Virus record (IMG/VR): IMGVR_UViG_3300048694_000674
Coordinates: 62,001 to 126,000 of that record
Direction: 5' to 3' (one strand)
Length of the DNA: 64,000 nt
Source: a virus
Part shown: positions 1,551-64,000 of the stretch, in pieces
How the letters are laid out: every line of letters begins with the position of its first letter
How positions within the stretch are numbered: the first letter of the stretch is position 1
Made by a program: the position numbers and the translations under genes
Notes under the pieces: model-generated
Seen by the model: only the letters and a program-made list of their open reading frames with translations
Databases searched by the model: none
What the model was told of the DNA's origin: nothing

Positions 1551-1566
1551 TTTTAGGAGAAATACT

Positions 1567-4344
1567 TTGGCTGAGTTAAATACTACAACTACTACTCAAA
1601 CTTCTACAACAGCGCAAGATGTTACTAATTTAGTAGTTAGTACACAAACCAGCACACAAACTGTTGGCAATTATGTAACAGATGTATCAATAAATCCATA
1701 CATCAAGTCTCAAACCATTTATTTTTCTGCATACAATCTACGTCCAGGGCAAACGATCCATGCGTTTTTTGACAAAGTTTTAGTTGATCAATATTGCGCT
1801 CCAGGCGATCCTAGCAACCCATCAGTAGATAGTAATGGTTTAAAAACATTTCCTCTAACAGCAGCATTTGGTTCTCCTCTTGTTGTTGACAGTAAAGGAC
1901 GTCTTGCTGGCGCTTTCACAATTCCTGAAGGAATGTTCAAAACAGGAGATAGAACATTCGAATTAGCTGATGCTGATAATCTAGCAGCAGCTGCAGACGC
2001 AATTTCAACTAAGGCGTTTTCAACATTCACTGGATCTCATCTTACGGTAACAAAACAGGCTGTTACTCTCACAACAATAAATCCAGTAATCTCAACATCA
2101 ACATCTACAATCACTTCAAGTAGCACACAATCATTCGTAAACACACAAACAATACCAGATAATGTTATAACACAAACAATTTATAACGATATTGCTAATA
2201 CTACAACAATACAAAATCCTTCAAGTACAGTATATAACTTTATTGTTCAACAAACTTCTGACACTAATGGTCCAGAAAACAACAGTGGAGCTGCGGACGA
2301 TCCAATCGCTCAGTTTTTCAGAGTAAACACTGGCGAAAGTTCATCAGGTGTATTTGCTACATCTCTGGAAATATATTTCAAACAGAAGCCAGCTACAAAC
2401 ATTAATGGTGTTACTGTTTATATTTGCGAACTTAACAATGGATATCCTGATAGCAGTAAAATTCTTCCTTATTCAATAAAACATCTTACATGGGATAATA
2501 TTGTTGTAACTACTGATTCAACAACATCAACTAAGTTTACATTCGATTGTCCAATATTCATGAACAACAACAAAGAATACGCTTTTGTTGTGAAGCCAGA
2601 CAACAATGATGTCGATTACTGGGTATATTCTGCAGAGCTTGGTGAAGTTGATCCATATCAAAATATTCAAGTATCAAGTATACCAGTTGTTGGTACTGCA
2701 TTCTATAGCGCAACAGAAAAAGCTTGGACAGCTCTACAAACAGAATATATTAAGTTCAAATTAAATGTTGCTCTGTTCGCAACATCTGATACAGGAACAG
2801 CGTATTTCAATAATGATGATAAAGATTATCTTACGGTATATAACGTTGGTAGAACAGCTGCTAAAGATATAACTCCAGGAGATTATGTTTTCCAAGCATC
2901 AAATTCAACTCCATCAACAGCAAACACCAAAATATTTGGTGTACTGAAATCATATGATGATGTTAATGGAATTATGTATGTACTGAATACTTCTGGAAAT
3001 AATTATACTTCAAATACTTATCTTCAAGTACATAGATTTGCTAACTCTTCTGTTACAATCAACGGAACAAATGTTAATACAAGTACAATTATTGCTTGGG
3101 CAAATACAGGAAGCTTCCATACTCCTGTGATTGATGCAGCTCAAATTCGTTTTGCTCCTATGACTCCAGGTGGTACAAACATCACTTATGGTTATCAGGG
3201 TACAAGCAATGCATATGTAACTGAATCAGGATATAATAACGTTGTACAGGGATACGAAAGAGAATTCAGAGATCAGGAAAGAATCGTTGCAAGTTATTCT
3301 GACCCATCTGCTCCAGCTAACTATAGTGCACAAATTAAAGCAGATTTGTCGACAATATCTGTATATACATCTCCTGTTATTGACTTGACATCATCAAATA
3401 TGTTCACATACAAGAACTTGGTTGATCCAGTTGCGTTCAATTATGGTGAATATCTTAACAATGGTAATTCATCAACGAAGTATGTTTCTCAGGTAATTAC
3501 ACTCGCTCCAGGTCAGGATGCTCAGGATCTTCAGGTTATTGTTACTGGTAGTCGTCCTGTTGGAACTGATATCAAAGTTTATGCTAAATTCCTTAATGCT
3601 CAAGATGGCGAAACTATCATTGATAAGTCTTGGTCGCCATTGTATAATTCAGGTTATGACACCTATACAGATCCAGCAAATATTGGAGATGTGAAGGAAT
3701 ATACATTCAAAACATTCCCATACTATGGATTGGTCAAAACATCTGGCACTATTTCTACCAGCGGTACAACTGTAACTGGTGTAGGTACAGCATTTGATAC
3801 AGAGCTCGCTGTTGGTTGGTATATCAATATGGCAGCTACTGCTACACAGCAGGAAACATCAAGAAAAGTTGTTGCTATTGCTAATAGCACTTCATTGACT
3901 CTTGATAGTGCATTTACCTATAGTTATTCTGGGCAACCATACTATCTTGTTCCACCACCAACCACAGCTTATAGATCTAAGTACAGTAATACTGCTCTTG
4001 CTGGAACTGTTTCTACATATACTACAAATAATAGTATTATTGGTAACGGGACTAACTTTACTGGCGATTTCCGCGCAGGTAGTATCATTTACGTAAATGG
4101 AGACAGCCAAGTTATAACTTCTATTGCTAACTCTACTTTATTGTATGTTGGTAAACCGTGGACAGCAAATAATAGTAGCAATGTTTATAGCATTCAGACG
4201 CTTGCTGGTATGACATATCTGAATAACAACAACAATCTTTATACGAACTACAAGCAGTTCCAGCTAAAGGTTATCCTCCAATCTAATGATAGCTCGAAAG
4301 TTCCAATTCTACAGGATGTTTCGGCAGTGGCTCTACAGCTGTAA
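1567..4344 (+). CDS. Large virion structural protein, cyanophage-like
   Basis: The start is TTG, 5 bp after the strong ribosome site AGGAGA. The protein has 925 residues. Near residue 40 it carries PYIKSQTIYFSA followed by a P-G-x-T-x-x-x-FFD segment, and around residue 115 FTIPEGMFKTGDRTF. Both recall blocks of large structural proteins of T4-like cyanophages. The rest is beta-rich and Asn/Thr/Ser-rich with few charges, as expected for an extracellular virion part. With the preceding gene it may be one ancestral polypeptide encoded as two. Baseplate or fibre-base location is an inference. Confidence 0.6.
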   Translation: MAELNTTTTTQTSTTAQDVTNLVVSTQTSTQTVGNYVTDVSINPYIKSQTIYFSAYNLRPGQTIHAFFDKVLVDQYCAPGDPSNPSVDSNGLKTFPLTAAFGSPLVVDSKGRLAGAFTIPEGMFKTGDRTFELADADNLAAAADAISTKAFSTFTGSHLTVTKQAVTLTTINPVISTSTSTITSSSTQSFVNTQTIPDNVITQTIYNDIANTTTIQNPSSTVYNFIVQQTSDTNGPENNSGAADDPIAQFFRVNTGESSSGVFATSLEIYFKQKPATNINGVTVYICELNNGYPDSSKILPYSIKHLTWDNIVVTTDSTTSTKFTFDCPIFMNNNKEYAFVVKPDNNDVDYWVYSAELGEVDPYQNIQVSSIPVVGTAFYSATEKAWTALQTEYIKFKLNVALFATSDTGTAYFNNDDKDYLTVYNVGRTAAKDITPGDYVFQASNSTPSTANTKIFGVLKSYDDVNGIMYVLNTSGNNYTSNTYLQVHRFANSSVTINGTNVNTSTIIAWANTGSFHTPVIDAAQIRFAPMTPGGTNITYGYQGTSNAYVTESGYNNVVQGYEREFRDQERIVASYSDPSAPANYSAQIKADLSTISVYTSPVIDLTSSNMFTYKNLVDPVAFNYGEYLNNGNSSTKYVSQVITLAPGQDAQDLQVIVTGSRPVGTDIKVYAKFLNAQDGETIIDKSWSPLYNSGYDTYTDPANIGDVKEYTFKTFPYYGLVKTSGTISTSGTTVTGVGTAFDTELAVGWYINMAATATQQETSRKVVAIANSTSLTLDSAFTYSYSGQPYYLVPPPTTAYRSKYSNTALAGTVSTYTTNNSIIGNGTNFTGDFRAGSIIYVNGDSQVITSIANSTLLYVGKPWTANNSSNVYSIQTLAGMTYLNNNNNLYTNYKQFQLKVILQSNDSSKVPILQDVSAVALQL

Positions 4345-14019: not shown

Positions 14020-14744
14020 AGAAAATTTTTATTGGTACTCCTGCATATGATGGTAAAGTCGATGTTCCTTATGCGATGGCGCTGCTGGATACATGCGAAT
14101 TATTGAAGTCCTGTTTTTATGAACCAATCGTAAGAGTTCCTGTTTCTGGTTCTCTTCTTGTTGCAGAAAGAAATAGATTAATTGAAATGTTTTGGCAATC
14201 AAATGCTGATTATATGTTGTGTATTGATAGCGATTTAGGTTGGAATCCATATTCAGTAATAAGATTATTAAATTCTGGTAAGGACGTATGCGGTGGTGTT
14301 TATCCTGGCAGAAAGGGAAATGGATTTACATTTAGACCATCTCTTCAGCCAGATAAACAAATTGAAATGTGTCCAGAAACTAAATTGTTGAAAATGGAAT
14401 ATATTCCAGCTGGATTTATGCTTTTTAGTAGAAAAGTTATTGCTGCTATGAGAGAGAAATTTCCAGAACTATATTATTCCCCAAAAGATCCAAGAAATGA
14501 TTCTGAAAGTGCATTTTGTTTCTTTGATACACAGGTTTATGAAGGCGAATTTTGGGGCGAAGACTACGTATTTTGTAGAAGGGTAAGAGAAGCTGGTTTT
14601 GATATTTGGGTTGATCCGATGATTGAGTTTAATCATGGTGGAACATGTGGTGCATTGATTCAGTCTCTTACTACTGATAAGAAATTAGCAGGGGTAACAG
14701 AAATAAATGACATCACCAGCGAAATCCAGCACGCCTCAGCTTAA
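14016..14744 (+). CDS. GT-A family glycosyltransferase-like protein
   Basis: The start at 14016 (ATGA overlap with the fibre stop) is preferred to an ATG 12 bp upstream because the family begins directly with KIFIGTPAYDG. The product has 242 residues. Residues 1-10 form the first beta strand, and DSD at 71-73 within CIDSDLGW is the likely nucleotide-sugar/metal-binding DxD. GGVYPGRK near 90 and WGEDYVFCRR near 190 match two other proteins in this window (20172 and 53887). Its position inside a fibre cassette suggests glycosylation of fibres or of host surface. The acceptor is unknown. Confidence 0.6.
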   Translation: MKKIFIGTPAYDGKVDVPYAMALLDTCELLKSCFYEPIVRVPVSGSLLVAERNRLIEMFWQSNADYMLCIDSDLGWNPYSVIRLLNSGKDVCGGVYPGRKGNGFTFRPSLQPDKQIEMCPETKLLKMEYIPAGFMLFSRKVIAAMREKFPELYYSPKDPRNDSESAFCFFDTQVYEGEFWGEDYVFCRRVREAGFDIWVDPMIEFNHGGTCGALIQSLTTDKKLAGVTEINDITSEIQHASA

Positions 14745-29568: not shown

Positions 29569-30408
29569 ATTTTCGGGCATAATTTTTACTACCAAACGAT
29601 TCGTAAATACGTTGCGCTATTTGGCACATTATTCAACGATATTCATATCTCAAGAACAGATAAGAATGGGAATCTTGTTGCATATATGAAGGTTCCAATT
29701 ACCTACTCAGCAAAAGATAAAATGCTGGCGCGTATTCAACAGGATCCTAATATTGACCGACCAACAGCAACGATACCACTTCCTCTTATGACATTTGAGC
29801 TTACATCAACAACATATGATGGCGATCGTAAGTTACCAACTATCAATAGATCAGCTACCAAGAATGCAAACAACAGCAATATTGTAAATTATCAATACAA
29901 TCCTGTGCCATATAATTTTGGATTCCGACTGAATATTCTTGTTAAAAATGCAGAAGATGGTACAAAAATTGTTGAACAGATCCTCCCATTCTTTACACCA
30001 GACTTCACTGTCACGGTTCAACTAATACCTCAGATGAACGAATTGAAAGATATTCCTGTTATCCTCAACAGTATTTCACATGAAGATACGTACAGCGGCG
30101 ACCTAAAAGAAAGACAGACTCTAACATGGACTCTTGACTTTACATTGAAGGGTTATCTGTATGGTCCAATCAAAACATCGAAGATTATCAAGTATGCAAA
30201 CGTATATTTCTATACACCATCTGTTCCAGATGGTCAGTTAGTAGCAGCTGTTGGGAATACAGCAAATGTTTCATATATACATATACAGCCAGGATTAACA
30301 GCAAATGGTATGCCAACATCAAATGCTGCTTTATCAATACCTGTAGCTGACATTAATATAACTGATGATTTTGGATATGTAATAGAGAAGGTAGATGCCC
30401 CAGAATAA
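29569..30408 (+). CDS. gp15: Tail sheath stabiliser/terminator gp15
   Basis: The homologous N-terminus is FGHNFYYQTIRKYVALFGTLFNDIHI, matching gp15 of T4-like phages (T4: 272 residues). There is no ATG, GTG or TTG at this point. An ATT at 29569 lies 6 bp after a perfect AAGGAGG, giving a 279-residue protein, so I place the start there. The alternative is an upstream ATG at 29524 inside the endonuclease gene, giving 15 foreign residues. In T4, gp15 caps the tail and joins it to the neck. The end overlaps gp16 by 14 bp. Confidence 0.75.
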   Translation: MFGHNFYYQTIRKYVALFGTLFNDIHISRTDKNGNLVAYMKVPITYSAKDKMLARIQQDPNIDRPTATIPLPLMTFELTSTTYDGDRKLPTINRSATKNANNSNIVNYQYNPVPYNFGFRLNILVKNAEDGTKIVEQILPFFTPDFTVTVQLIPQMNELKDIPVILNSISHEDTYSGDLKERQTLTWTLDFTLKGYLYGPIKTSKIIKYANVYFYTPSVPDGQLVAAVGNTANVSYIHIQPGLTANGMPTSNAALSIPVADINITDDFGYVIEKVDAPE

Positions 30409-37335: not shown

Positions 37336-37590
37336 ATGGATGATAATGTAACTGTACAGGATTTGATTTACCATTCTTATGAACAAAAGCCTATTGAGTT
37401 TCAAAACACATTTAATACATTAATGTCTGACAAAATTACTGCTGCTATTAATGATAGAAAAATGGAAGTAGCTCAGACAATGTTTAGAGACCAACAGGAA
37501 TATGAAGAAGAAGATCAAGAGGAACAACCTGATACGGAAATAGAATCAGAAACGGATCAAGAGGAAACATCAGATGGCGAAACTACTTAA
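37336..37590 (+). CDS. gp67: Prohead core protein, gp67-like
   Basis: The 84-residue product has a helical N-terminal half (TVQDLIYHSYEQKPIEFQNTFNTLMSDKI) and a very acidic C-terminal half (EYEEEDQEEQPDTEIESETDQEE). This matches T4 gp67 (80 residues), a precursor of internal peptides, in length, acidic tail and position between gp20 and the next core gene. It overlaps the following gene by 17 bp. Confidence 0.7.
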   Translation: MDDNVTVQDLIYHSYEQKPIEFQNTFNTLMSDKITAAINDRKMEVAQTMFRDQQEYEEEDQEEQPDTEIESETDQEETSDGETT

Positions 37591-38998
37591 AGATATTTTA
37601 AAACAAGCGCACGACACTATCAAGGGAGTTCGTCCATCCACTACTGTTGATGGCTCCATTGGTAAAGATCCTGGCGTTGATTACGATCCAAAAGCTGGTG
37701 ACGAACAAGACTTTGTTGCCAAGCATTCCGTACAGAAATGGGATGACCCGAACGGTAATAGCACTGGCGTATTTACTTCTCAAAAGGGTGAAGCTCCTTA
37801 CCAGAAGCAATCCAAAGGTGTTTACGAATCAAAAAAAGATGAGGACACCAAGTGTAATATGTCAGAAGCTGGCTCTTGGTGTCCAATGCACGAAATGGCT
37901 GACTGCTCAAAAATGACCAAGATTAATGAGATTTCAAAATCGACTCTTGGTTCATACATCAAAAAGTCTTCGCAGGATTTGAAAAATATTGAAGCTGGTC
38001 GCGAAAAGAATGCAGGTTATGCAGCGCATGTAAAAACAAATCGCATGCAAACTAATAGAACCAAAGGTATTAATAGAGCTGTAAATAAACTCGCAAAAGA
38101 AGAAGTTGAGCAGATTGATGAGCTTTCTTCTGCTACGTATAAATCTGCAATGCATAAAGCTTCCAACAGAGCTATGTGGGATCCCCAGGGACCAAAAGGA
38201 CCAATGTATAAAAAATACAAAACAATGGCACAAAAGTTCCGTGATAAAGGAATGGACCAGGAAAAGAAAGAAAAGGCTTCTATGAAAGAAGAAGTCGAGC
38301 TCGATGAAGTATCAAAGGCAACACTTGGTTCTTATGTAAATAAAGCTGATGATTCTGTGAGAGCATTATCAAGAAAAACTGTTGTTGGTAATGCTTCACC
38401 AGAACAAAAAAAGAAATTCTATGACAATAATGATAGAAAAATCGATAAAAGATTTGATTCGATGGATTTAGCTATCAAAAAGTTATCAGGTAAAGCCAAA
38501 GTAAATGCAAAAGAAGAAGTCGAGCTCGATGAAGTAATTACAAAGAAAACATCAGCTGGCGAAGTTATTTCTGACTTCATTCATTCAAAGAATCCTAAGT
38601 TTGCTGGTAAGTCAAAAGAAGAACGTAAGCGTATGGCTCTTGGTGCTTATTATTCAAAGCATCCAGAAAAGTCAAAGAGCGTTAAAGAAGATCTTGCTGT
38701 TCCTTTACTCGGTGGTGAACCACCACGTGGTCATTCAGATGAAGCTGCAGAGATGGTAAAGTCAGAGTTGAAAGCTCTTGCTAATAAAGCAATGCATCTT
38801 ATTTCTCAAATGCCAGACTCAATGCATGTCGAGCCATGGATTCAAGCTAAAATTGCACAAGCAAAAGAACATGTCTCAGCTGTTCACGATTATATGATCT
38901 ATGGCGATCATGATAAGCAAGATGAAAAAGAGCAGATGGACACACCAATGACATTTCCAAATATGTCAGTAGATGTTAATACAGGAAGAAACGTATGA
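37574..38998 (+). CDS. Large prohead core/internal protein, gp68 position
   Basis: The 474-residue, highly charged product lies between gp67 and gp21, where T4 has gp68 (141 residues). It contains repeated modules: EISKSTLGSYIKK (119-131), EVSKATLGSYVNK (245-257), and KEEVEQIDELS, KEEVELDEVS, KEEVELDEVI near 175, 239 and 315. A cluster C94, C103, H106, C111 could bind zinc. LxE-type sites fit cleavage by the gp21 protease, suggesting it is processed to internal peptides. Fragments of this gene recur, rearranged, at 59449-59896. Confidence 0.6.
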   Translation: MAKLLKDILKQAHDTIKGVRPSTTVDGSIGKDPGVDYDPKAGDEQDFVAKHSVQKWDDPNGNSTGVFTSQKGEAPYQKQSKGVYESKKDEDTKCNMSEAGSWCPMHEMADCSKMTKINEISKSTLGSYIKKSSQDLKNIEAGREKNAGYAAHVKTNRMQTNRTKGINRAVNKLAKEEVEQIDELSSATYKSAMHKASNRAMWDPQGPKGPMYKKYKTMAQKFRDKGMDQEKKEKASMKEEVELDEVSKATLGSYVNKADDSVRALSRKTVVGNASPEQKKKFYDNNDRKIDKRFDSMDLAIKKLSGKAKVNAKEEVELDEVITKKTSAGEVISDFIHSKNPKFAGKSKEERKRMALGAYYSKHPEKSKSVKEDLAVPLLGGEPPRGHSDEAAEMVKSELKALANKAMHLISQMPDSMHVEPWIQAKIAQAKEHVSAVHDYMIYGDHDKQDEKEQMDTPMTFPNMSVDVNTGRNV

Positions 38999-57129: not shown

Positions 57130-57528
57130 ATGGTGTCTATAGACTCGCTTATTGAAGTGAAAATTGCAGAGGAAGAAGACTTTCTAAAGATCAAAGAAAC
57201 ACTGACTCGTATTGGTGTAGCATCTCGTAAAGACAACAAACTTTATCAATCATGTCATATTCTCCATAAGCAGGGGAAATATTACATTGTTCATTTCAAG
57301 GAATTATTTGCTCTTGATGGTAAGCCATCTGACTTTACCGAAGAAGATAAAGGTCGCCGTAACACGATCGTTCAGCTTCTTCAAGAATGGGGTCTGATAA
57401 AGGTTGTTGAAGCTGATTCAATCAAGGAACCAAAAGCTCCAATGAGTCAGGTAAAGATTATTCCTCATAAAGATAAAGCAAACTGGACACTCGAAGCAAA
57501 ATATAATATTGGTCGTAAAAAGAAATAA
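57130..57528 (+). CDS. regA: Translational repressor RegA
   Basis: The ATG at 57130 is 1 bp after the gp62 stop; a GTG 9 bp upstream in frame is possible. The 132-residue product (T4: 122) contains EEDFLKIKETLTRIGVASRKDNKLYQSCHILHKQGKYYIVHFKELFALDG, very close to T4 RegA, and ends KYNIGRKKK. RegA binds AU-rich starts of early mRNAs and blocks translation. Position after gp62 is canonical. Confidence 0.92.
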   Translation: MVSIDSLIEVKIAEEEDFLKIKETLTRIGVASRKDNKLYQSCHILHKQGKYYIVHFKELFALDGKPSDFTEEDKGRRNTIVQLLQEWGLIKVVEADSIKEPKAPMSQVKIIPHKDKANWTLEAKYNIGRKKK

Positions 57529-57543
57529 CAGCGGAGTTATTTT

Positions 57544-57903
57544 ATGTTATTTGGTATGTTTAAAGTGAAAAAAGAAGCGAAAACAGATTCGGAGAAAAAG
57601 CTAGAGAAGCTATCAAATATTCTGTTTCCTCCATTTGAAAAACAAACGCTGAAGAATGGCGACAAGATTCTAATTGATTATTCGATAGACTCGAATCTAG
57701 ATGCTGCTCTGTCAGATCTAGAAGATGGTAATAATGACCCAGCTTCCAGAAAAACAATCAAACTGTGCGTCGATAGATTGATCGAAGCAAGAAAAATTCT
57801 TGAAACTTATGGTGAGTTTGATAAAGATGTCAAGTATATTGTAGTTGATGACTTGAGCAGAAAAGAGGATTCGATCGATGAAAAAGTACAGGCAAAAGAT
57901 TGA
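57544..57903 (+). CDS. Hypothetical protein after regA
   Basis: The 119-residue product (MLFGMFKVKKEAKTDSEKKLEKLSNILFPPFEKQTLKNGDKILIDYSIDSNLDAALSDLEDG) is charged and helical, with no family recognised. A GGAG ribosome site precedes it. A gene of similar size and MFG-F-K N-terminus often follows regA in related phages. It overlaps the next gene by 26 bp. Confidence 0.6.
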   Translation: MLFGMFKVKKEAKTDSEKKLEKLSNILFPPFEKQTLKNGDKILIDYSIDSNLDAALSDLEDGNNDPASRKTIKLCVDRLIEARKILETYGEFDKDVKYIVVDDLSRKEDSIDEKVQAKD

Positions 57904-58093
57904 GAACATAGACAAGTTCATCGAATCTCTTGAAGAGATGATTGATGCTCGTGATGATATGTGGGAAGAGGAAAAGTACTCAAACCATAGGCAAATGTGG
58001 AAGATCAAAGAAGAGCGATACCTTCCTGCCAAGGCAAAGCTTCGGGAAGCGCTCCATGACTTTATTGCTGAGGTAATCGAAGAAGATGTCTAA
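57878..58093 (+). CDS. Small helical hypothetical protein
   Basis: The 71-residue product (MKKYRQKIENIDKFIESLEEMIDARDDMWEEEKYSNHRQMW) is nearly all charged helix. GAGGATTCGATCG supplies a ribosome site inside the upstream gene. It ends the replication operon; the first of the small early promoters follows. Function unknown. Confidence 0.55.
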   Translation: MKKYRQKIENIDKFIESLEEMIDARDDMWEEEKYSNHRQMWKIKEERYLPAKAKLREALHDFIAEVIEEDV

Positions 58094-58119
58094 GTTATTG
58101 ATTTTATTATAGAAAAAAA
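58091..58119 (+). repeat. 29-bp direct repeat, copy 1
   Basis: TAAGTTATTGATTTTATTAT plus AGAAAAAAA; the same sequence occurs at 58388-58416. Each copy lies just upstream of an early-type promoter, so promoter segments appear duplicated. Confidence 0.7.
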
Positions 58120-58123
58120 GTGC

Positions 58124-58152
58124 TTTACTTATTTCCAAATTTGGCGTATACT
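58124..58152 (+). promoter_or_regulatory. Sigma70-type promoter, CCAAA-spacer family
   Basis: TTTACT, 17-bp spacer, TATACT. The spacer has TTTCCAAATTTGGCG, shared in outline with promoters at 58443 and 59132. It lies 27 bp before the ATG at 58179. Confidence 0.65.
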
Positions 58153-58178
58153 GAGAAAGTCAATAAAGGAGACGGATT

Positions 58179-58352
58179 ATGGTTTTAAGGGAAATTTACG
58201 CTGACTTTCAAAAAATTACCAATATTCAAGAAAAAATTGACTTTCTCAAGGTTTTACAGTCGCTTAACCTCAGTTATGATATAAATTATAATAATCTTAT
58301 AGAAGCTTGGACTGAACGATTGCCCAAAAGTGACGACCAAGCCTCAGAATAA
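58179..58352 (+). CDS. Small hypothetical protein
   Basis: The 57-residue product (MVLREIYADFQKITNIQEKI...) has an AAGGAG ribosome site and is flanked by a promoter and a terminator, forming a single-gene unit. It is helical and acidic at the end (LPKSDDQASE). Such units are typical early host-takeover genes. No family is recognised. Confidence 0.6.
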   Translation: MVLREIYADFQKITNIQEKIDFLKVLQSLNLSYDINYNNLIEAWTERLPKSDDQASE

Positions 58353-58361
58353 GCTTAACCA

Positions 58362-58390
58362 TTAGCCCCAGATCTCGTATTTGGGGCTAA
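58362..58390 (+). terminator. Intrinsic terminator
   Basis: TTAGCCCCA and TGGGGCTAA form a perfect 9-bp stem with an 11-nt loop, followed by GTTATTGATTTTATT. It ends the 58179 transcript. Confidence 0.7.
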
Positions 58391-58416
58391 GTTATTGATT
58401 TTATTATAGAAAAAAA
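58388..58416 (+). repeat. 29-bp direct repeat, copy 2
   Basis: Identical to 58091-58119. It overlaps the end of the terminator stem and precedes the promoter at 58443. Confidence 0.7.
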
Positions 58417-58442
58417 AAGTTGAAAAAAAGCGAAAAAAGTGC

Positions 58443-58471
58443 TTTACTTATATCCAAATCGGCGGTAGAAT
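58443..58471 (+). promoter_or_regulatory. Sigma70-type promoter, CCAAA-spacer family
   Basis: TTTACT, 17-bp spacer, TAGAAT. The spacer TATATCCAAATCGGCGG resembles those at 58124 and 59132. It should drive 58500, 58619 and 58974. Confidence 0.6.
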
Positions 58472-58499
58472 GTATTATAGGTTGATGAAGGAGTTCTAA

Positions 58500-58607
58500 A
58501 TGTCTACCTCTGATATGCTTTATGTGTTCGGTCCTATGATTGGTTTGGTGATTGGAATGATCGTTACTTTCGGTGTCGTTCACTATAATGACGTTCGTGG
58601 TCGTTGA
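58500..58607 (+). CDS. Single-pass membrane mini-protein
   Basis: The 35-residue product (MSTSDMLYVFGPMIGLVIGM plus 15 residues) has one hydrophobic helix of about 20 residues and a short basic end (HYNDVRGR). The ribosome site AAGGAG is at good distance. Small early membrane proteins of phages often affect superinfection or lysis timing; this is inference. Confidence 0.6.
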   Translation: MSTSDMLYVFGPMIGLVIGMIVTFGVVHYNDVRGR

Positions 58608-58618
58608 GGAGTTCTAAT

Positions 58619-58972
58619 ATGAGCAATGGTATCGAGCTGTTACTTTCTGATAATCGTGGCATTTATATCCCGCAGCATTGGGCAATGTATTGCCAAGATA
58701 TGGATGGTGTTTCTGCTGAGGATATGGAAATCCTCAAAGCTGGTCCCGATCATGAGTGGTACTGGGAAGCTTGGGATGCTGTTCTCTCCAATGCTTCCGC
58801 TACGCATAACGGCAAAGTCTGGCGCTTGTGGCAGGATGGCGATTTGTTTGCTTACTGCGAAGAGCTGATGACCGATGAGGAATACAAAGGATTCTTCGGC
58901 GAAAATCGGGATGGCGCTTTTCAGCCCGAAGCTGATATCTACGGTGATAATGTTCTAGAAGAGGAGATCTGA
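58619..58972 (+). CDS. Hypothetical acidic protein
   Basis: The ATG at 58619 follows GAGGAGTTCTAAT; the longer frame starts inside the upstream gene. The 117-residue product (MSNGIELLLSDNRGIYIPQHWAMYCQDMD) has many Trp (WYWEAWDAVLSNASATHNGKVWRLWQDGDLF) and acidic residues. The W-x-L-x-Q-DGDLF segment resembles small phage/bacterial proteins without known function. Its GC content is higher than that of the structural genes, hinting at separate origin. Confidence 0.6.
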   Translation: MSNGIELLLSDNRGIYIPQHWAMYCQDMDGVSAEDMEILKAGPDHEWYWEAWDAVLSNASATHNGKVWRLWQDGDLFAYCEELMTDEEYKGFFGENRDGAFQPEADIYGDNVLEEEI

Positions 58973-58973
58973 T

Positions 58974-59135
58974 ATGATGTTTAAGAAATTCGCTCTTGTT
59001 GCTTTGGTTGGTGGTATCGTCGGCGGAACACTGTCCGTAATCCTGCCAGCATCACCGATATCGGCTTTAGCTATCTTCGGTATTTGTTTCGCGATTGGTT
59101 GGTTCTTCAACGATTTTCTAGATAAAATCGCTTGA
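58974..59135 (+). CDS. Two-helix membrane mini-protein
   Basis: The 53-residue product (MMFKKFALVALVGGIVGGTL...) has a positively charged start, a Gly-rich first helix, a PASP turn and a second helix (ALAIFGICFAIGWFF). GAGGAG precedes the ATG. It follows 58619 by 1 bp. A small membrane effector is likely; target unknown. Confidence 0.6.
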   Translation: MMFKKFALVALVGGIVGGTLSVILPASPISALAIFGICFAIGWFFNDFLDKIA

Positions 59136-59160
59136 CTAATATCCAAAACTGCGGTATACT
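59132..59160 (+). promoter_or_regulatory. Sigma70-type promoter, CCAAA-spacer family
   Basis: TTGACT, 17-bp spacer, TATACT, overlapping the stop of 58974. The spacer AATATCCAAAACTGCGG matches the family. It precedes the gene at 59186. Confidence 0.7.
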
Positions 59161-59185
59161 TAGTATATGATGAGGAGATGGTGGT

Positions 59186-59473
59186 ATGAGATTCGACGAT
59201 TACGCTTTTGAGCAATGCGCTCGTGCTGTTTATATCATGAACGATTCTGCACGGGAACTCTATGATTCATGGGAAGAACTACGTTCGTTCATGGAATCTA
59301 TGGCTTATCAATATGGCGGAAACGCTGGGTGCACTCATTTCGAAACTGGTGGTTTCTGTCTTTCGTTCTCGCGTTCATCGGTTGATCGCGAAGATTGGTT
59401 TGTAACTGCATCTATTGAGCCATATACAGCTTTGCGATATATTAAATCAATGCAGATTATGCAGCGCATGTAA
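59186..59473 (+). CDS. Hypothetical protein with C-terminus replaced by duplicated DNA
   Basis: The 95-residue product begins MRFDDYAFEQCARAVYIMND after GGAGATGGTGGT. From codon about 88 the DNA (59449 onward) is a copy of part of the prohead-core gene (38009-38064) read in another frame, giving the last residues MQIMQRM and the stop. The native C-terminus has therefore been lost or altered. No family is recognised. Confidence 0.6.
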   Translation: MRFDDYAFEQCARAVYIMNDSARELYDSWEELRSFMESMAYQYGGNAGCTHFETGGFCLSFSRSSVDREDWFVTASIEPYTALRYIKSMQIMQRM

Positions 59474-59896
59474 AAACAAATCGCATGCAAACTAATAGAA
59501 CCAACTGTTGATGGCTCCATTGGTAAAGATCCTGGCGTTGATTACGATCCAAAAGCTGGCGACGAACAAGACTTTGTTGCCAAACATTCCGTACAGAAAT
59601 GGGATGACCCAAATGGTAATGGACCAGATGTGTTTCAAGGCACAAATATAAAGTACTCGTTGGATAAAGAAGCTCATCATGGCTATAAGAAGCCAGAAGA
59701 TAAGAGAGTCAACGAATCAAAAAAAGATGAGGAGACCAAGTGTAATATGTCAGAAGCTGGTTCTTGGTGTCCAATGCACGAAATGGCTGACTGCTCAAAG
59801 ATGACCAAGATTAACGAGATTTCAAAATCAACTCTTGGTTCATACATCAAAAAGTCTTCGCAGGATTTGAAAAATATTGAAGCTGGTCGCGAAAAG
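59449..59896 (+). repeat. Rearranged partial copy of the prohead-core gene
   Basis: Three blocks match the gene at 37574: 59449-59504 to 38009-38064 (one difference in 56 bp), 59504-59620 to 37643-37759 (four in 117) and 59712-59896 to 37824-38008 (five in 185). The order is permuted: the first block is the piece that directly follows the third in the donor. A 91-bp segment at 59621-59711 has no counterpart in the donor. Confidence 0.85.
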
Positions 59897-60139
59897 GGTG
59901 ACAAATGTGAGCTTGGAGTATGCCTAATGACTAGCGAATTCTTTTCCAAGGAAAACACATTGGTCGAGTTGAAGGAAGAACTGTATACTCGTTTGAGTGA
60001 TGTGCGTCGAGTTATGGCTTTGAAGTCGGGCGACCAAGAAGATTTCTTGGATGGCTTTTACGAAGGTATCAACTGTCGTGCTGCCAATGAAGACTTCTGG
60101 CTGTCGATGCTACTGGATAAATTGGAGAAATCAGTATGA
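59630..60139 (+). CDS. Chimeric protein: core-gene fragment fused to a hypothetical protein
   Basis: The open frame from GTG 59630 gives 169 residues. Residues 1-28 are unique, 29-89 copy the core protein in its own frame including the Cys/His cluster, and the rest is another protein. No good ribosome site precedes the GTG. The ATG at 59927 (MTSEFFSKENTLVELKEELYTRLSDVRRVMALKSG) is the likely original start, giving 70 residues ending DFWLSMLLDKLEKSV. The short form is the safer call; the fusion may be pseudogenic. Confidence 0.5.
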   Translation: MFQGTNIKYSLDKEAHHGYKKPEDKRVNESKKDEETKCNMSEAGSWCPMHEMADCSKMTKINEISKSTLGSYIKKSSQDLKNIEAGREKGDKCELGVCLMTSEFFSKENTLVELKEELYTRLSDVRRVMALKSGDQEDFLDGFYEGINCRAANEDFWLSMLLDKLEKSV

Positions 60140-60501
60140 CTATGCAACTTTGCCCAGCATTTGTCACAACTACAAATTTGCGTAAGCGTAAGTCAACCAT
60201 GACTGGCAAACAGAAGCTACAACTTCTTGCCCATCAACAGTGGGTTGACTCCATGAAAAAAGGTATGACAAAAGATAAAAAAGTGCTTGACAAATTATGG
60301 AAAACCGAGTATACTAATAATATGGTTGTCGATCGATCTGCTATGCAGAAGTCAGGTTTGGTTTCTGGAGCTTGCGCAAAGCCAGAGGAAAAAGTATATA
60401 CTGGCACCAAGCTTCTTGGTATCGCTACTATGCATAAGAGTAATATGGTTCCTGTCTTCAAAGCTGAAGATGCTGCCGATATTGCTAGTATGAGGAGATA
60501 A
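60136..60501 (+). CDS. Hypothetical protein with internal promoter
   Basis: The 121-residue product overlaps the previous gene by ATGA. It is basic at the N-terminus (LRKRKSTMTGKQKLQLLAHQQW) and ends VPVFKAEDAADIASMRR, an ending seen in small hypothetical proteins of T4-like phages. A perfect -35 and near-perfect -10 lie inside it at 60287-60315. An internal ATG at 60322 could give a 59-residue shorter protein from that promoter. Function unknown. Confidence 0.55.
   Translation: MTMQLCPAFVTTTNLRKRKSTMTGKQKLQLLAHQQWVDSMKKGMTKDKKVLDKLWKTEYTNNMVVDRSAMQKSGLVSGACAKPEEKVYTGTKLLGIATMHKSNMVPVFKAEDAADIASMRR
60287..60315 (+). promoter_or_regulatory. Sigma70-type promoter inside a coding region
   Basis: TTGACA, 17-bp spacer, TATACT, lying within the frame 60136-60501 and just before an in-frame ATG at 60322. 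It may drive the C-terminal part and the genes at 60505 and 60751. Confidence 0.65.
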
Positions 60502-60504
60502 GCT

Positions 60505-60684
60505 ATGGGTAATTATTATATTCAAGCACAGGATAAGTCGGGTGTTTGGCGTACATATCATGTAACACCAGCAAGTCCAAATATGCAAAGAGTTTTGTCA
60601 GAAATGCAATCGTTGAAGCGATCATTTCCTGATTATCGAGTTCGTACCATTGATGATAATGGACGAGTGGTAGATATTCTATAA
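60505..60684 (+). CDS. Small hypothetical protein
   Basis: The 59-residue product (MGNYYIQAQDKSGVWRTYHV...) starts 3 bp after the previous stop with GAGGAGATAAGCT as ribosome site. FPDYRVRTIDDNGRVVDIL at the end suggests a small alpha/beta fold. Similar short proteins with 'RVRxxDxxGRxVD' occur in bacteria and phages. Function unknown. Confidence 0.6.
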   Translation: MGNYYIQAQDKSGVWRTYHVTPASPNMQRVLSEMQSLKRSFPDYRVRTIDDNGRVVDIL

Positions 60685-60721
60685 AAGAATATCAAATTGT
60701 GAAATATATCTCATCAAGATG

Positions 60722-60729
60722 TATAAATA
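60722..60729 (+). promoter_or_regulatory. T4-type late promoter TATAAATA
   Basis: Exact late consensus, 29 nt before the ATG at 60751. Confidence 0.55.
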
Positions 60730-60750
60730 ATGTTTAACATGGAGAAACTA

Positions 60751-61011
60751 ATGTCTAAGACTAATCAGGTATTGCAAGCATTTTTGAATGGTGAAGCTCT
60801 TACTGCTTCTCAAATTACAGCTCGTTATGGTATTGCGAATCCTCATGACACTGTTTATAATCTTCGTAACTCTGGATACGCTGTGTATCTGAATACTAAG
60901 AAGAATTCGAAAGGTGTCAGTGTTTCCAAGTATCGTCTCGGCGCGCCAACTCGTAAGGTTGTAGCAGCTGGGATCGCCGCTCTAGGTGTTCGGGAAGCTG
61001 GTCTCGTCTAA
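60751..61011 (+). CDS. Winged-helix-like small protein
   Basis: The ATG at 60751 follows GGAGAAACTA and is preferred to an ATG 21 bp upstream that overlaps the late promoter region. The 86-residue product has NQVLQAFLNGEALTASQITARYGIANPHDTVYNLRNSGYAVYLN, a helix-turn-helix with a wing, as in small phage regulators. The C-terminal RKVVAAGIAALGVREAGLV is helical. It is followed by a terminator. A transcription role is inferred. Confidence 0.65.
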   Translation: MSKTNQVLQAFLNGEALTASQITARYGIANPHDTVYNLRNSGYAVYLNTKKNSKGVSVSKYRLGAPTRKVVAAGIAALGVREAGLV

Positions 61012-61036
61012 AAGATAAGAAATAACTTATCGAAGG

Positions 61037-61065
61037 GGCGGGACTGAAAAGTACCCGCCTTTTTT
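61037..61065 (+). terminator. Intrinsic terminator
   Basis: GGCGGG and CCCGCC pair (with adjacent AC/GT and one bulge) around a short loop, followed by six Ts. It ends the winged-helix transcript. Confidence 0.75.
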
Positions 61066-61070
61066 AGTGC

Positions 61071-61099
61071 TTTACTTTTTTAGTGAAGTATGGTAATAT
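61071..61099 (+). promoter_or_regulatory. Sigma70-type promoter of the tRNA region
   Basis: TTTACT, 17-bp spacer, TAATAT, directly after a terminator and upstream of the structured RNA and tRNA genes. Confidence 0.6.
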
Positions 61100-61134
61100 A
61101 AAGAATATGCTGTTTGACATTGTTAGAAACCTTT

Positions 61135-61154
61135 GAGACAACTTCGGTTGTCTC
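61135..61154 (+). other. UUCG-capped hairpin in the tRNA leader
   Basis: GAGACAAC and GTTGTCTC form a perfect 8-bp stem with a TTCG loop. Only TTCATGG follows, so it is more likely a leader/processing structure than a terminator. Confidence 0.55.
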
Positions 61155-61159
61155 TTCAT

Positions 61160-61264
61160 GGGTGTATCAGAGCGTGGTCTGGCGCAAAGACTGCTAGGCT
61201 TCTCAGTCCGTCTTATTCGCGATACAACGACGGTGGTGACAGAAGTTAGATAGCTGGTACATCC
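61160..61264 (+). ncRNA. Candidate structured small RNA upstream of tRNAs
   Basis: GGGTGTATCAG (61160-61170) pairs with CTGGTACATCC (61254-61264) over 11 bp with two G-U pairs. Inside are a hairpin GGTCT/AGACT-like (61176-61192), a stem GCTTCT/AGAAGT (61198/61241) and a nested stem CCGTC/GACGG (61208/61229). No reading frame or tRNA cloverleaf fits. T4 has two stable RNAs (C and D) among its tRNAs, so this may be an analogue. Confidence 0.45.
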
Positions 61265-61279
61265 TTGAAGAGATAATGA

Positions 61280-61356
61280 TGGCGCATAGCTCAGTTGATT
61301 AGAGCACGCGATTGATAATCGTGAGGTCGATGGTTTGAGTCCATCTGTGCCAACCA
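61280..61356 (+). tRNA. tRNA-Ile (GAT)
   Basis: Acceptor TGGCGCA/TGTGCCA, anticodon stem CGCGA/TCGTG with loop TTGATAA (anticodon GAT), T arm GATGG-TTTGAGT-CCATC, discriminator A and encoded CCA. A standard cloverleaf of 77 nt. Confidence 0.92.
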
Positions 61357-61360
61357 ATAC

Positions 61361-61434
61361 TGGGAAATCGTCTAATGGTAGGACTACGGTTTTTGGGTCC
61401 GTCTATCGGGGTTCGAGTCCCTGTTTCCCATCCA
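61361..61434 (+). tRNA. tRNA-Gln (TTG)
   Basis: Acceptor TGGGAAA/TTTCCCA, T arm CGGGG-TTCGAGT-CCCTG, anticodon loop TTTTGGG giving TTG, encoded CCA after discriminator T. The anticodon stem ACGGT/TCCGT has a T-T mismatch next to the loop. Confidence 0.85.
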
Positions 61435-61441
61435 ATAAGTT

Positions 61442-61518
61442 TCTGCGTGTCGCCTAGCCTGGTGTGGCACTTCGTTTGGGACGAAGAATAACGGGAGTTC
61501 AAATCTCTCCACGCAGAC
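61442..61518 (+). tRNA. tRNA-Pro (TGG), CCA not encoded
   Basis: Acceptor TCTGCGT/ACGCAGA, anticodon stem CTTCG/CGAAG with loop TTTGGGA (TGG), T arm GGGAG-TTCAAAT-CTCTC. The 3' end runs into CATAAGCGACT of the endonuclease leader with no CCA, unlike most tRNAs here. Confidence 0.88.
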
Positions 61519-61525
61519 ATAAGCG

Positions 61526-61574
61526 ACTCCGATGTATAAATAGTAATGTCAATAAAACTGTTATACATCGGAGT
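61526..61574 (+). promoter_or_regulatory. RBS-sequestering hairpin with embedded late promoter
   Basis: ACTCCGATGTATAA (61526-61539) and TTATACATCGGAGT (61561-61574) are perfectly complementary over 14 bp. The right arm contains the GGAG ribosome site of the endonuclease; the left arm overlaps TATAAATA (61535-61542). RNA from upstream promoters would hide the ribosome site; RNA started from the late promoter would lack the left arm. Confidence 0.75.
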
Positions 61575-61579
61575 GCAGC

Positions 61580-62224
61580 TTGTTTTATACGATCTATAAA
61601 ATTACTAACAAAATAAACAATAAATTCTATATTGGGATGCATAAAACCAATAATTTAGATGATGGTTACATGGGTTCTGGTAAGCTTATTAGAAGAGCCA
61701 TCTCTAAACATGGAATAGAAAATTTCACTAAAGAAATTCTTCATGTGTTTGATAACGAACAAGATATGAAAAATAAAGAGAAACAGCTTGTTATTCTTTC
61801 TGAAAACACCTACAATCTTTGTGATGGTGGTAAAGGCGGATTTGGTTACATCAATTCGAATCCAGAAAAGTTTTTAACAGAAAAGAGATTAAAATCTCTT
61901 TGGACATCAGAAAAAAGAATAAATCGTTGGCGGGAAAAATATAAAAATGATGTAAAATTTAGAAATGATTGTTTAGAAAGATCTAGGCATGCATTGAAAA
62001 AATATAAAGAAAAATATCCAAAAAGTGCATTTTTTGGGCGAACCCATTCTGAGGAAACAAAAAATAAGATGCGTAAGTCGAAAAATGCTGGTGAAAAAAA
62101 TTCACAGTACGGAACTTGTTGGATAACCAATGGTCAAGAAAATAAAAAGATCAAAAAAGAAGAACTTGACAAATTTATCGAATTAGGTTATTATAAAGGT
62201 AGAATAATTAAATTACAAGAATGA
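61580..62224 (+). CDS. GIY-YIG homing endonuclease next to tRNA-Pro
   Basis: The start is TTG, 6 bp after GGAG, and the same arrangement recurs at 63834. The 214-residue product begins [37 protein letters not shown], the full GIY-YIG motif (YTIYKITN...FYIG) with the GYMGSG turn. It continues with a Lys-rich spacer, HSEETKNKMRKS (NUMOD3-like) and a YGTCWITNGQENKKI C-terminal module like that of T4 Seg-type enzymes. It is much more AT-rich than neighbouring tRNAs. It probably cleaves tRNA-region DNA of related phages. Confidence 0.85.
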   Translation: MFYTIYKITNKINNKFYIGMHKTNNLDDGYMGSGKLIRRAISKHGIENFTKEILHVFDNEQDMKNKEKQLVILSENTYNLCDGGKGGFGYINSNPEKFLTEKRLKSLWTSEKRINRWREKYKNDVKFRNDCLERSRHALKKYKEKYPKSAFFGRTHSEETKNKMRKSKNAGEKNSQYGTCWITNGQENKKIKKEELDKFIELGYYKGRIIKLQE

Positions 62225-62235
62225 ACCGTAGGAAT

Positions 62236-62386
62236 GACAGTCTGACTGTCTGATAGTCGGGTAATACAAGCAGAGTGGTTTCTGTGAGTACCGAGTCGCC
62301 TATGCCTCTTGTCGTTGCACTAACCAGCAACGATCGTGTGAGAGAGGGCGCTGTCGCCGAGCAGCAGGAGAGCGTAGGATATACGC
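62236..62386 (+). ncRNA. Candidate structured RNA segment before tRNA-Ser
   Basis: Four hairpins follow each other: GACAGT/ACTGTC (62236-62250), TCGTTGC/GCAACGA (62312-62333), GGCG/CGCC (62347-62358) and GCGTA/TACGC (62372-62386). There is no reading frame with a ribosome site, and no tRNA fits. It may be one RNA or processing signals of the tRNA transcript. Confidence 0.35.
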
Positions 62387-62400
62387 ATCGGCAATAATTT

Positions 62401-62484
62401 GGAGGTATGCGAGCAAGGTGCTCAAACGGTCTTGAAAACCGTGCCACCGCAAGGTTGATGGTTCGATTCCTTGTACCTCCGCCA
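62401..62484 (+). tRNA. tRNA-Ser (TGA)
   Basis: Acceptor GGAGGTA/TACCTCC, anticodon stem ACGGT/ACCGT with loop CTTGAAA (TGA), a long variable arm as in class II tRNAs, discriminator G and encoded CCA. 84 nt. Confidence 0.92.
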
Positions 62485-62487
62485 AAT

Positions 62488-62561
62488 ATCAGTGTCGTAT
62501 AATGGTAGTACAACTGTCTCCAAAACCGTTAGTGTGGGTTCGATTCCTACCACTGGTGCCA
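62488..62561 (+). tRNA. tRNA-Trp (CCA)
   Basis: Acceptor ATCAGTG/CACTGGT, T arm GTGGG-TTCGATT-CCTAC, anticodon loop CTCCAAA (CCA), discriminator G as in Trp tRNAs, encoded CCA. The anticodon stem ACTGT/ACCGT has one T-C mismatch. Confidence 0.82.
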
Positions 62562-62563
62562 TC

Positions 62564-62571
62564 AATAAATA
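62564..62571 (+). promoter_or_regulatory. Late promoter-like AATAAATA
   Basis: Seven of eight match, 39 nt before the lipoprotein start and just after tRNA-Trp. Confidence 0.45.
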
Positions 62572-62602
62572 TTACAAATACAACTCTATCGGAGTAAATC
62601 AA

Positions 62603-62965
62603 ATGAAAGCATTGGTAGTAGCAAGTATCGTAGCACTTTCATTAGCTGGTTGCGCAAGTACATCTGGTCCAAACCAAACAATTGGAACTGGTGTTGGTGC
62701 AGTTGGTGGATATGGTGTTGCAAGAGCATTAGGAGCAGGACCAGCTGGATCTGCATTAGGAGCTGTTGCTGGTGCTTTGATTGGTAATGAAGTTGGTAGA
62801 AGTATTGATGCTCCGAGACCACAGGTCATCGTTCAAGAGCCGAGATATATTGTACAACAACCAAGATATATTGCTCCTCCACCGCCTCGTCGTATCAGCT
62901 GTTATAGCGTATGGGACAATTACCATGGTCGTTATGTAGAGCGCAGAGTTTGTAATAGATATTAA
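62603..62965 (+). CDS. Glycine-zipper lipoprotein
   Basis: The ATG at 62603 follows GGAGTAAATCAA; the longer frame runs through tRNA-Trp and is rejected. The 120-residue product has a lipoprotein signal MKALVVASIVALSLAGC with lipobox LAGC, cleaved before C17. Residues 28-66 form a glycine zipper (GTGVGAVGGYG...AVAGALIGNEVG), as in bacterial SlyB/17-kDa-antigen-type proteins. The rest is Pro/Arg-rich with two Cys. It should be anchored in an envelope membrane. A superinfection-exclusion or envelope-stability role is plausible. Confidence 0.7.
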   Translation: MKALVVASIVALSLAGCASTSGPNQTIGTGVGAVGGYGVARALGAGPAGSALGAVAGALIGNEVGRSIDAPRPQVIVQEPRYIVQQPRYIAPPPPRRISCYSVWDNYHGRYVERRVCNRY

Positions 62966-62973
62966 AAGATTAT

Positions 62974-63052
62974 TCCCAGGAATCCGAGCATGGTGCATGG
63001 ACTTGCCTGTTAAGCAATGATTAGGTGGGATCGTTACCCACACTGGGAGCCA
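62974..63052 (+). tRNA. tRNA-Asn (GTT), somewhat degenerate
   Basis: T arm GTGGG-ATCGTTA-CCCAC is perfect, acceptor TCCCAGG/ACTGGGA has one mismatch, discriminator G and CCA are encoded. The anticodon loop CTGTTAA gives GTT; its stem has four pairs. The D arm is unusual, so function is less certain. Confidence 0.65.
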
Positions 63053-63057
63053 AGCTC

Positions 63058-63139
63058 ATAGGGCATAAAGACGTTATGTCGAGTAATCGCAATTTGCGGC
63101 TAAATGATAACCAAATTGTCACCTTGTGTGGCTCCCTAT
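63058..63139 (+). ncRNA. Candidate cloverleaf-like non-tRNA
   Basis: ATAGGG (63058-63063) pairs with CCCTAT (63134-63139) and encloses three hairpins: CATAA/TTATG (63064-63078), CGCA/TGCG (63088-63098) and GATAA/TTGTC (63106-63120). No T-loop sequence (TTCRANY) is present, so it is not a normal tRNA. It starts 6 nt after tRNA-Asn and would be released with it. Confidence 0.4.
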
Positions 63140-63149
63140 CGAAATCAAT

Positions 63150-63225
63150 GCGAGATTAGCTCAGCTGGGAGAGCGTCTGTTTTACACGCAGAATGTCGGC
63201 AGTTCGATCCTGTCATCTCGCACCA
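63150..63225 (+). tRNA. tRNA-Val (TAC)
   Basis: Acceptor GCGAGAT/ATCTCGC, D arm TAGCTCAGCTGGGAGAGC, anticodon loop TTTACAC (TAC), T arm GGCAG-TTCGATC-CTGTC, encoded CCA. Very close to bacterial tRNA-Val. Confidence 0.93.
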
Positions 63226-63282
63226 TTTGTTTTTAAACGACTAACATTAGATCCTATTCTTATCCGTTTTATATCATTCTTT

Positions 63283-63359
63283 GGTCTGTTAGTTCAGTTG
63301 GTCAGAACACTCGCCTGTCACGCGAGAGGTCATGGATTCGAGTTCCATACAGATCGCCA
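63283..63359 (+). tRNA. tRNA-Asp (GTC)
   Basis: Acceptor GGTCTGT/ACAGATC, anticodon stem CTCGC/GCGAG with loop CTGTCAC (GTC), T arm ATGGA-TTCGAGT-TCCAT, discriminator G, encoded CCA. Confidence 0.93.
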
Positions 63360-63378
63360 CTTTATGATGGAGTATATA

Positions 63379-63699
63379 ATGAATTCGCACGTGAGTTATG
63401 AATACAATATGATGACACTTGTAGCCAATGCTTGGATCAATGGTGGTAATCTTAATGATCCTATCGTTGTCAATAATATGTGTGGTATGGTATTATATAC
63501 AACAGCAAGTAAGATCATTTTATATTTGTATGCAAATGAAGGTTTAGTGATTCCAGATGATATTCTAGAAATCTTAAATAAGGTTGTGCTTCAGATTACA
63601 ACTCTTGTTCCAGAACTTCGTACAGAAGTCCAAGAAGAAAAGTTACAACCAAAAGATTTTTTGAAGTTACAAAAATTTATCGATGATAATATAAGTTAA
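63379..63699 (+). CDS. Hypothetical helical protein
   Basis: The ATG at 63379 follows TGGAGTATATA; earlier in-frame starts lie in tRNA-Asp or have no ribosome site. The 106-residue product (MNSHVSYEYNMMTLVANAWI...) is mainly helical, with a hydrophobic centre (VVNNMCGMVLYTTASKIILYLY) and a charged end (KLQPKDFLKLQKFIDDNIS). It lies between tRNA genes, a common place for orphan phage genes. No family recognised. Confidence 0.55.
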   Translation: MNSHVSYEYNMMTLVANAWINGGNLNDPIVVNNMCGMVLYTTASKIILYLYANEGLVIPDDILEILNKVVLQITTLVPELRTEVQEEKLQPKDFLKLQKFIDDNIS

Positions 63700-63700
63700 T

Positions 63701-63772
63701 GTTGCTTGGGTGGGACGGTAACGCGCAGGTCTGCAAAACCTTGAGAATCCAGTTCAACTCTGGAAAGCAACT
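63701..63772 (+). tRNA. tRNA-Cys (GCA), CCA not encoded
   Basis: Acceptor GTTGCTT/AAGCAAC, anticodon loop CTGCAAA (GCA), T arm TCCAG-TTCAACT-CTGGA, discriminator T as in Cys tRNAs. No CCA: the 3' end runs into CATAAGCGACT of the second endonuclease leader. Confidence 0.88.
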
Positions 63773-63780
63773 CATAAGCG

Positions 63781-63828
63781 ACTCTGATGTATAAATAGCT
63801 ATATGTAAGTCTCTTTATACATCGGAGT
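63781..63828 (+). promoter_or_regulatory. RBS-sequestering hairpin with embedded late promoter, second copy
   Basis: ACTCTGATGTATAAA (63781-63795) pairs with TTTATACATCGGAGT (63814-63828) over 15 bp with one G-U. TATAAATA lies at 63790-63797 and the ribosome site GGAG at 63824-63827. Same design as at 61526. Confidence 0.75.
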
Positions 63829-63833
63829 GCAGC

Positions 63834-64000
63834 TTGTTTTATACAATCTATAAAATTACTAATAATCTTAATGATAAGTTTTATGTTGGTAAACATAAAA
63901 CTATCGATCTTAACGATGGTTATATGGGTTCTGGTAAACTTATCAAACACGCCATAGAAAAATATGGCTTAGAAAACTTTACTAAAGAGATTTTGCATGT
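63834..64000 (+). CDS. GIY-YIG homing endonuclease, cut by window edge
   Basis: The TTG start and leader are the same as at 61580. The 55 visible residues ([20 protein letters not shown], then [27 protein letters not shown]) are a close paralogue of that endonuclease. The gene follows tRNA-Cys as the other follows tRNA-Pro. It continues beyond the window. Confidence 0.8.

Follow-up and report, generated by a model that had tools for sequence, protein, structure and literature searches.

Background

In human segmental duplication pairs, circular intermediates have been inferred from a change in the order of the duplicated parts and from joints that carry only micro-homology (PMC7450558), and the precedents cited in that study include the cattle colour-sidedness translocations and vasa of the Nile tilapia. 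Among bacteriophages, T4 recombines readily at short homologies, and segmental duplication is documented there, typically at 6–10 bp (PMC9391042). For relatives of T4, ectopic insertion without mobile-element signatures has been proposed (PMC2993671). Here, we analyzed a window of 64,000 nucleotides (positions 62,001–126,000) from a 141,393-bp metagenomic virus record of IMG/VR, IMGVR_UViG_3300048694_000674, in which a rotated copy of part of one gene lies at the end of another, unrelated one from the early region. Unless a position is given as one of the record, coordinates are those of the window.

The phage and the donor-type gene

The phage is of the T4 type. The genes and segments that frame the donor-type gene were as follows.

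35595, portal gene (PHROGs)
37336, prohead-family gene, upstream neighbour of the 37574 gene (PHROGs)
37574–38998, + strand, donor-type gene of 474 aa, resident allele in the order A-Y-B-C (ORF)
37643–37759, + strand, donor block A (self-BLAST)
37760–37823, + strand, segment Y, 64 bp, the variable part of the resident allele, similar to L012 and L018
37824–38008, + strand, donor block B (self-BLAST)
38009–38064, + strand, donor block C, abutting B directly (self-BLAST)
39246, gp21-like head protease, Peptidase_S77 (PHROGs and Pfam)
54756, sliding clamp gene
55807, clamp loader gene

The donor-type gene sits between the prohead-family gene and the head protease, which we take to be the place of the small core genes in T4. 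The first-pass annotation had called it the prohead-core gene, but that label reflects position only: the prohead match belongs to the neighbour at 37336, and the sole match of the 37574 gene in PHROGs is PHROG 5709, whose function is unknown. In the family of this gene (L011–L030), the N- and C-terminal ends are kept and the modules between them differ strongly, which makes it suitable material for studies of module shuffling. Searches of phage records gave no DNA match to the donor region or to the target region described below.

Several other features of the record were observed. A curli-type cluster lies outside the window (record 354–3292) and encodes CsgF (PF10614, E = 2e-17), CsgG (PF03783, E = 2e-51), a FecR-domain protein (PF04773) and a curlin-like protein that is rich in repeats and has no match in Pfam. 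At record 14286–14499, a 108-bp unit with internal 21-bp repeats occurs twice in tandem (98% identical). Furthermore, about 230 bp after the tRNA genes is repeated at 79% identity (61518–61746 and 63773–64000). The first of these copies includes 5' sequence of a GIY-YIG/NUMOD3 homing endonuclease gene (61580–62224), so the second may be another copy, cut by the end of the window.

The insert is a rotated copy

The insert consists of the following parts.

59449–59896, + strand, insert of 448 bp in the order C-A-X-B
59449–59504, + strand, insert block C (self-BLAST)
59504–59505, + strand, putative circle-closure junction C|A, where 38064 is joined to 37643 with a 1-nt overlap relative to the resident allele
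59504–59620, + strand, insert block A (self-BLAST)
59621–59711, + strand, segment X, 91 bp, an allele of the donor gene (tblastn)
59712–59896, + strand, insert block B (self-BLAST)

Self-BLAST gave exactly three ungapped matches at 96.6–98.2% identity: block C, 59449–59504 to 38009–38064 (98.2%, E = 6e-21); block A, 59504–59620 to 37643–37759 (96.6%, E = 8e-50); and block B, 59712–59896 to 37824–38008 (97.3%, E = 6e-86). These coordinates reproduce the three near-identical blocks of 56, 117 and 185 bp with few differences reported in the first-pass annotation, and its claim of an ectopic, near-identical duplicate of a segment of the 37574 gene was likewise confirmed. The blocks are the only dispersed repeat of that length with > 95% identity in the 141-kb record, and the copy lies 21 kb from the donor locus.

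In the donor, A-Y-B-C run unbroken (37643–38064). In the insert, the 91-bp X takes the place of the 64-bp resident Y, and C stands first. The permuted order noticed earlier is thus real, but it is no arbitrary shuffle: the two outer ends of the insert correspond to 38009 and 38008, which are neighbours in the donor. In the order and joints of its blocks, the insert is an exact circular permutation, that is, one complete turn of a circle. For independent ends, the probability of exact abutment is about 0.002 within the 422-bp span and about 0.0007 within the whole gene. The outer joints (TTAAATC|AATGCAG and CGAAAAG|GGTGACA) have 0 nt of common sequence, and the closure joint C|A has 1 nt of micro-homology. 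A-X-B is open in frame; block C is not in frame with A.

The target gene and its surroundings

The features at the target site are listed below.

59186–59473, + strand, interrupted early-region gene, 95 aa now and 97 aa with the flanks joined (homologues L010, L039 and L042–L046)
59897–59930, + strand, 3' end of the 59186 gene, displaced by the insert; it overlaps the beginning of the downstream gene (in-frame rejoining)
59928–60139, + strand, downstream gene of 70 aa (own ATG after GGAG; homologues)

When 59448 was joined to 59897, the interrupted gene was restored (...RYIKS|VTNVSLEYA*). The joined flanks form an open frame (...YTALRYIKSVTNVSLEYA) whose stop codon overlaps the ATG at 59928, and the rejoined-flank peptide reads RYIKSVTNVSLEYA*. 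As far as the sequence tells, no base was lost at the target and no target duplication arose. The present 59186 protein ends in seven residues, MQIMQRM, where the restored frame has nine, VTNVSLEYA. The first-pass annotation had described this gene as truncated by the insertion; an insertion into the gene is supported, but only its end is altered (97 to 95 aa) and it is not grossly truncated. The insert was absent from all six related contigs (L041–L046, of which L046 is more distant; L041 is the same contig as L010, and L044 the same as L039). Four of the six (L041, L043, L044 and L045) have YIEAVTN at the site (...YIEAVTNR...), and L042 has ...YIERVNK.... The exact empty site was not found in the viral contigs.

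The boundary 3' of the target gene varies, being followed by two other genes in L010, by none in L039 and by the 70-aa gene here. In L010 and L039, homologues of the 70-aa gene precede the target gene; the 70-aa query alone had no match in the viral contigs. A reading frame is open from GTG 59630 through this downstream gene, and a fusion gene had been proposed there. An ATG of its own, preceded by GGAG, stands at the start of the downstream gene (59928), and in relatives the homologues start close to the equivalent position; a fusion protein is therefore unlikely, and the predicted fusion is probably not a gene. The insert is probably a non-functional passenger at a boundary of variable gene content.

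Repeats were also observed upstream of the target. A 57-bp repeat, present at 59132–59189 and at record 129906–129962, lies in front of the interrupted gene and contains a sigma-70-like promoter (TTGACT-17-TATACT). A further repeat of 30–105 bp, which lies some 1 kb before the insertion, recurs at several places in the record with 85–100% identity (window 58387–58489 and 58090–58119; record 30093–30195 and 128906–128975).

Source of the inserted allele

Segment X encodes GPDVFQGTNIKYSLDKEAHHGYKKPEDKRV. In tblastn searches, this peptide matched seven homologues of the donor gene (L014–L017, L019, L020 and L025) at the same position, with 57–66% identity over 30–39 aa, and Y aligned best with L012 and L018. 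Judged from these alignments, X and Y are both normal alleles in a gene family of marked modularity. The earlier suggestion that X came from a divergent allele agrees with the X-like sequence at the same place in relatives; its further specification, that the allele belonged to another phage, is one of two options, as the source may have been another phage or an earlier state of the same lineage. The core gene with X between the matching blocks envisaged in the first-pass annotation has X-like counterparts in relatives, but none with the exact X: the exact piece was not found in viral contigs, no exact source allele was found, and a search of prokaryote genomes gave no relative of the A-X-B peptide.

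Blocks A, B and C differ between the two copies at 10 sites, 8 of which are synonymous in the donor frame, compared with about 3 expected (P about 0.0007). This excess of synonymous differences indicates that most of the divergence predates the insertion and stems from a time when both copies were under selection as the 37574 gene.

Proposed mechanism and alternative explanations

The exact rotation points to a circular intermediate, and the likely and most parsimonious account is the homology-free insertion of a ~448-bp DNA circle derived from a divergent allele. In step 1, a ~448-bp fragment of an X-type 37574 allele would have become circular when the positions equivalent to 38064 and 37643 were joined, with a 1-nt overlap; the allele would have come from an earlier state of the lineage or from a co-infecting relative. 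In step 2, the circle would have been opened at a single point, 38008|38009, and its full length joined between 59448 and 59897 without homology, with a blunt linear piece entering a break or through one reciprocal non-homologous crossover. The product (step 3) is exactly one rotated unit, which displaces the final nine residues of the 59186 protein. DNA fragments of a few hundred bp form circles readily, and type II topoisomerases are capable of non-homologous DNA exchange. The record, which may be incomplete, gave no Pfam match for DNA ligase (PF01068), type II topoisomerase (PF00521) or reverse transcriptase (PF00078); the joining enzymes would therefore be host-made, unrecognised or encoded in a missing part. 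The rotated insert is a single example, and the C|A junction occurred in no second viral contig.

Recombination-dependent replication is central to T4-type phages, and a template switch during this process could have copied 38009 to 38064, moved back to copy 37643 to 38008, and returned to the target. Such a jump would agree with the short overlap between C and A. However, the start and stop points would have to match exactly by mere coincidence (a probability of about 1 in 450 or lower), the two outer joints have no homology, and nothing was lost at the target, so we regard template switching as unlikely. It is highly improbable that the source phage carried the donor segment as a tandem duplication and that a linear piece of this array was inserted directly, without a circle. 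T4 does make tandem amplifications at short homologies (PMC9391042), but those reported typically involve 6–10 bp as against 1 nt here, a random piece would not equal exactly one unit, and excising exactly one unit from an array would again yield a circle.

A library or assembly chimera, in which a gene fragment of a second strain was artificially joined into the contig, is unlikely as well. The metagenomic nature of the record, joints without homology, a length of 448 bp within the range of sheared library fragments, and junctions seen in no independent contig would all suit it. Yet donor and target share nothing at the joints that could mislead an assembler, which means that junction molecules must have existed, and both outer joints fit one precise site, where the chimera would have had to outcompete the native path. 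We find it extremely improbable that the insert is kept for a function, for instance as a silent cassette through which conversion across A and B would swap X and Y in the 37574 gene. Those two blocks (117 and 185 bp, about 97% identical) do flank the alternative cores, A-X-B is open, and the family is strongly modular in relatives; against this, there is no start signal, no relative has an insert at the 59449–59896 site, the frames of C and A do not agree, and a cassette would not need rotation.

The following candidates were rejected. For an insertion sequence or transposon, the flanks (AAATC and GGTGA) differ, there is no target duplication, and the insert is coding sequence of the donor gene. 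For a group I intron or homing endonuclease insertion, Rfam detected only tRNAs in 57500–64000, and the insert encodes a donor-gene peptide. Integrase-mediated site-specific insertion of a circle was discarded because 59448|59449 and 59896|59897 have no common core, and T4 tandem segmental amplification because the copy is rotated and 21 kb away rather than head-to-tail at the donor locus. Routes through reverse transcriptase or a phage topoisomerase or ligase have no support in the record, where these Pfam families gave no match. A 27-bp match at C1:734 lies inside a CsgF gene and looks like a chance match.

Circle-type rotation is a rarely documented rearrangement route in viruses. The event described here is resolved to the base and provides a signature that can be searched for across phage genomes, namely a rotated order with an exactly restorable target. 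If such insertions recur, minicircles would be a vehicle of phage gene shuffling. It is very doubtful, at present, that circles of a few hundred bp arise regularly in T4-type infections, carry modules between co-infecting phages, insert without homology and partly shape the modularity of the 37574 family.

Comparison with known systems

The locus shows the sequence features associated with circular intermediates. Positions 38008 and 38009, neighbours in the donor, form the two outer ends of the derivative copy, and the donor ends are joined inside it (38064 to 37643, at 59504). The joints lack homology (0 nt outer, 1 nt closure), and the acceptor site is intact in L041–L046, with the joined frame matching the YIEAVTN of L041 and L043–L045. 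As in the duplications of PMC7450558, the order is changed (A-B/C-D to B-A/D-C) with the donor retained, and micro-homology is confined to closure with no homology at insertion. Unlike those duplications, which exceed 20 kb in an animal genome, the phage insert is 448 bp, its allele differs from the resident donor, and its joints have no indels. The T4 segmental amplifications (PMC9391042) likewise concern a T4-type phage and duplication with little joint homology, but they are tandem and in order, whereas the insert here is dispersed and rotated. Similarly, the ectopic insertions of PMC2993671 add DNA without signatures of known mobile elements; in contrast to those, the donor, the opening point and the target site are resolved here to the base.
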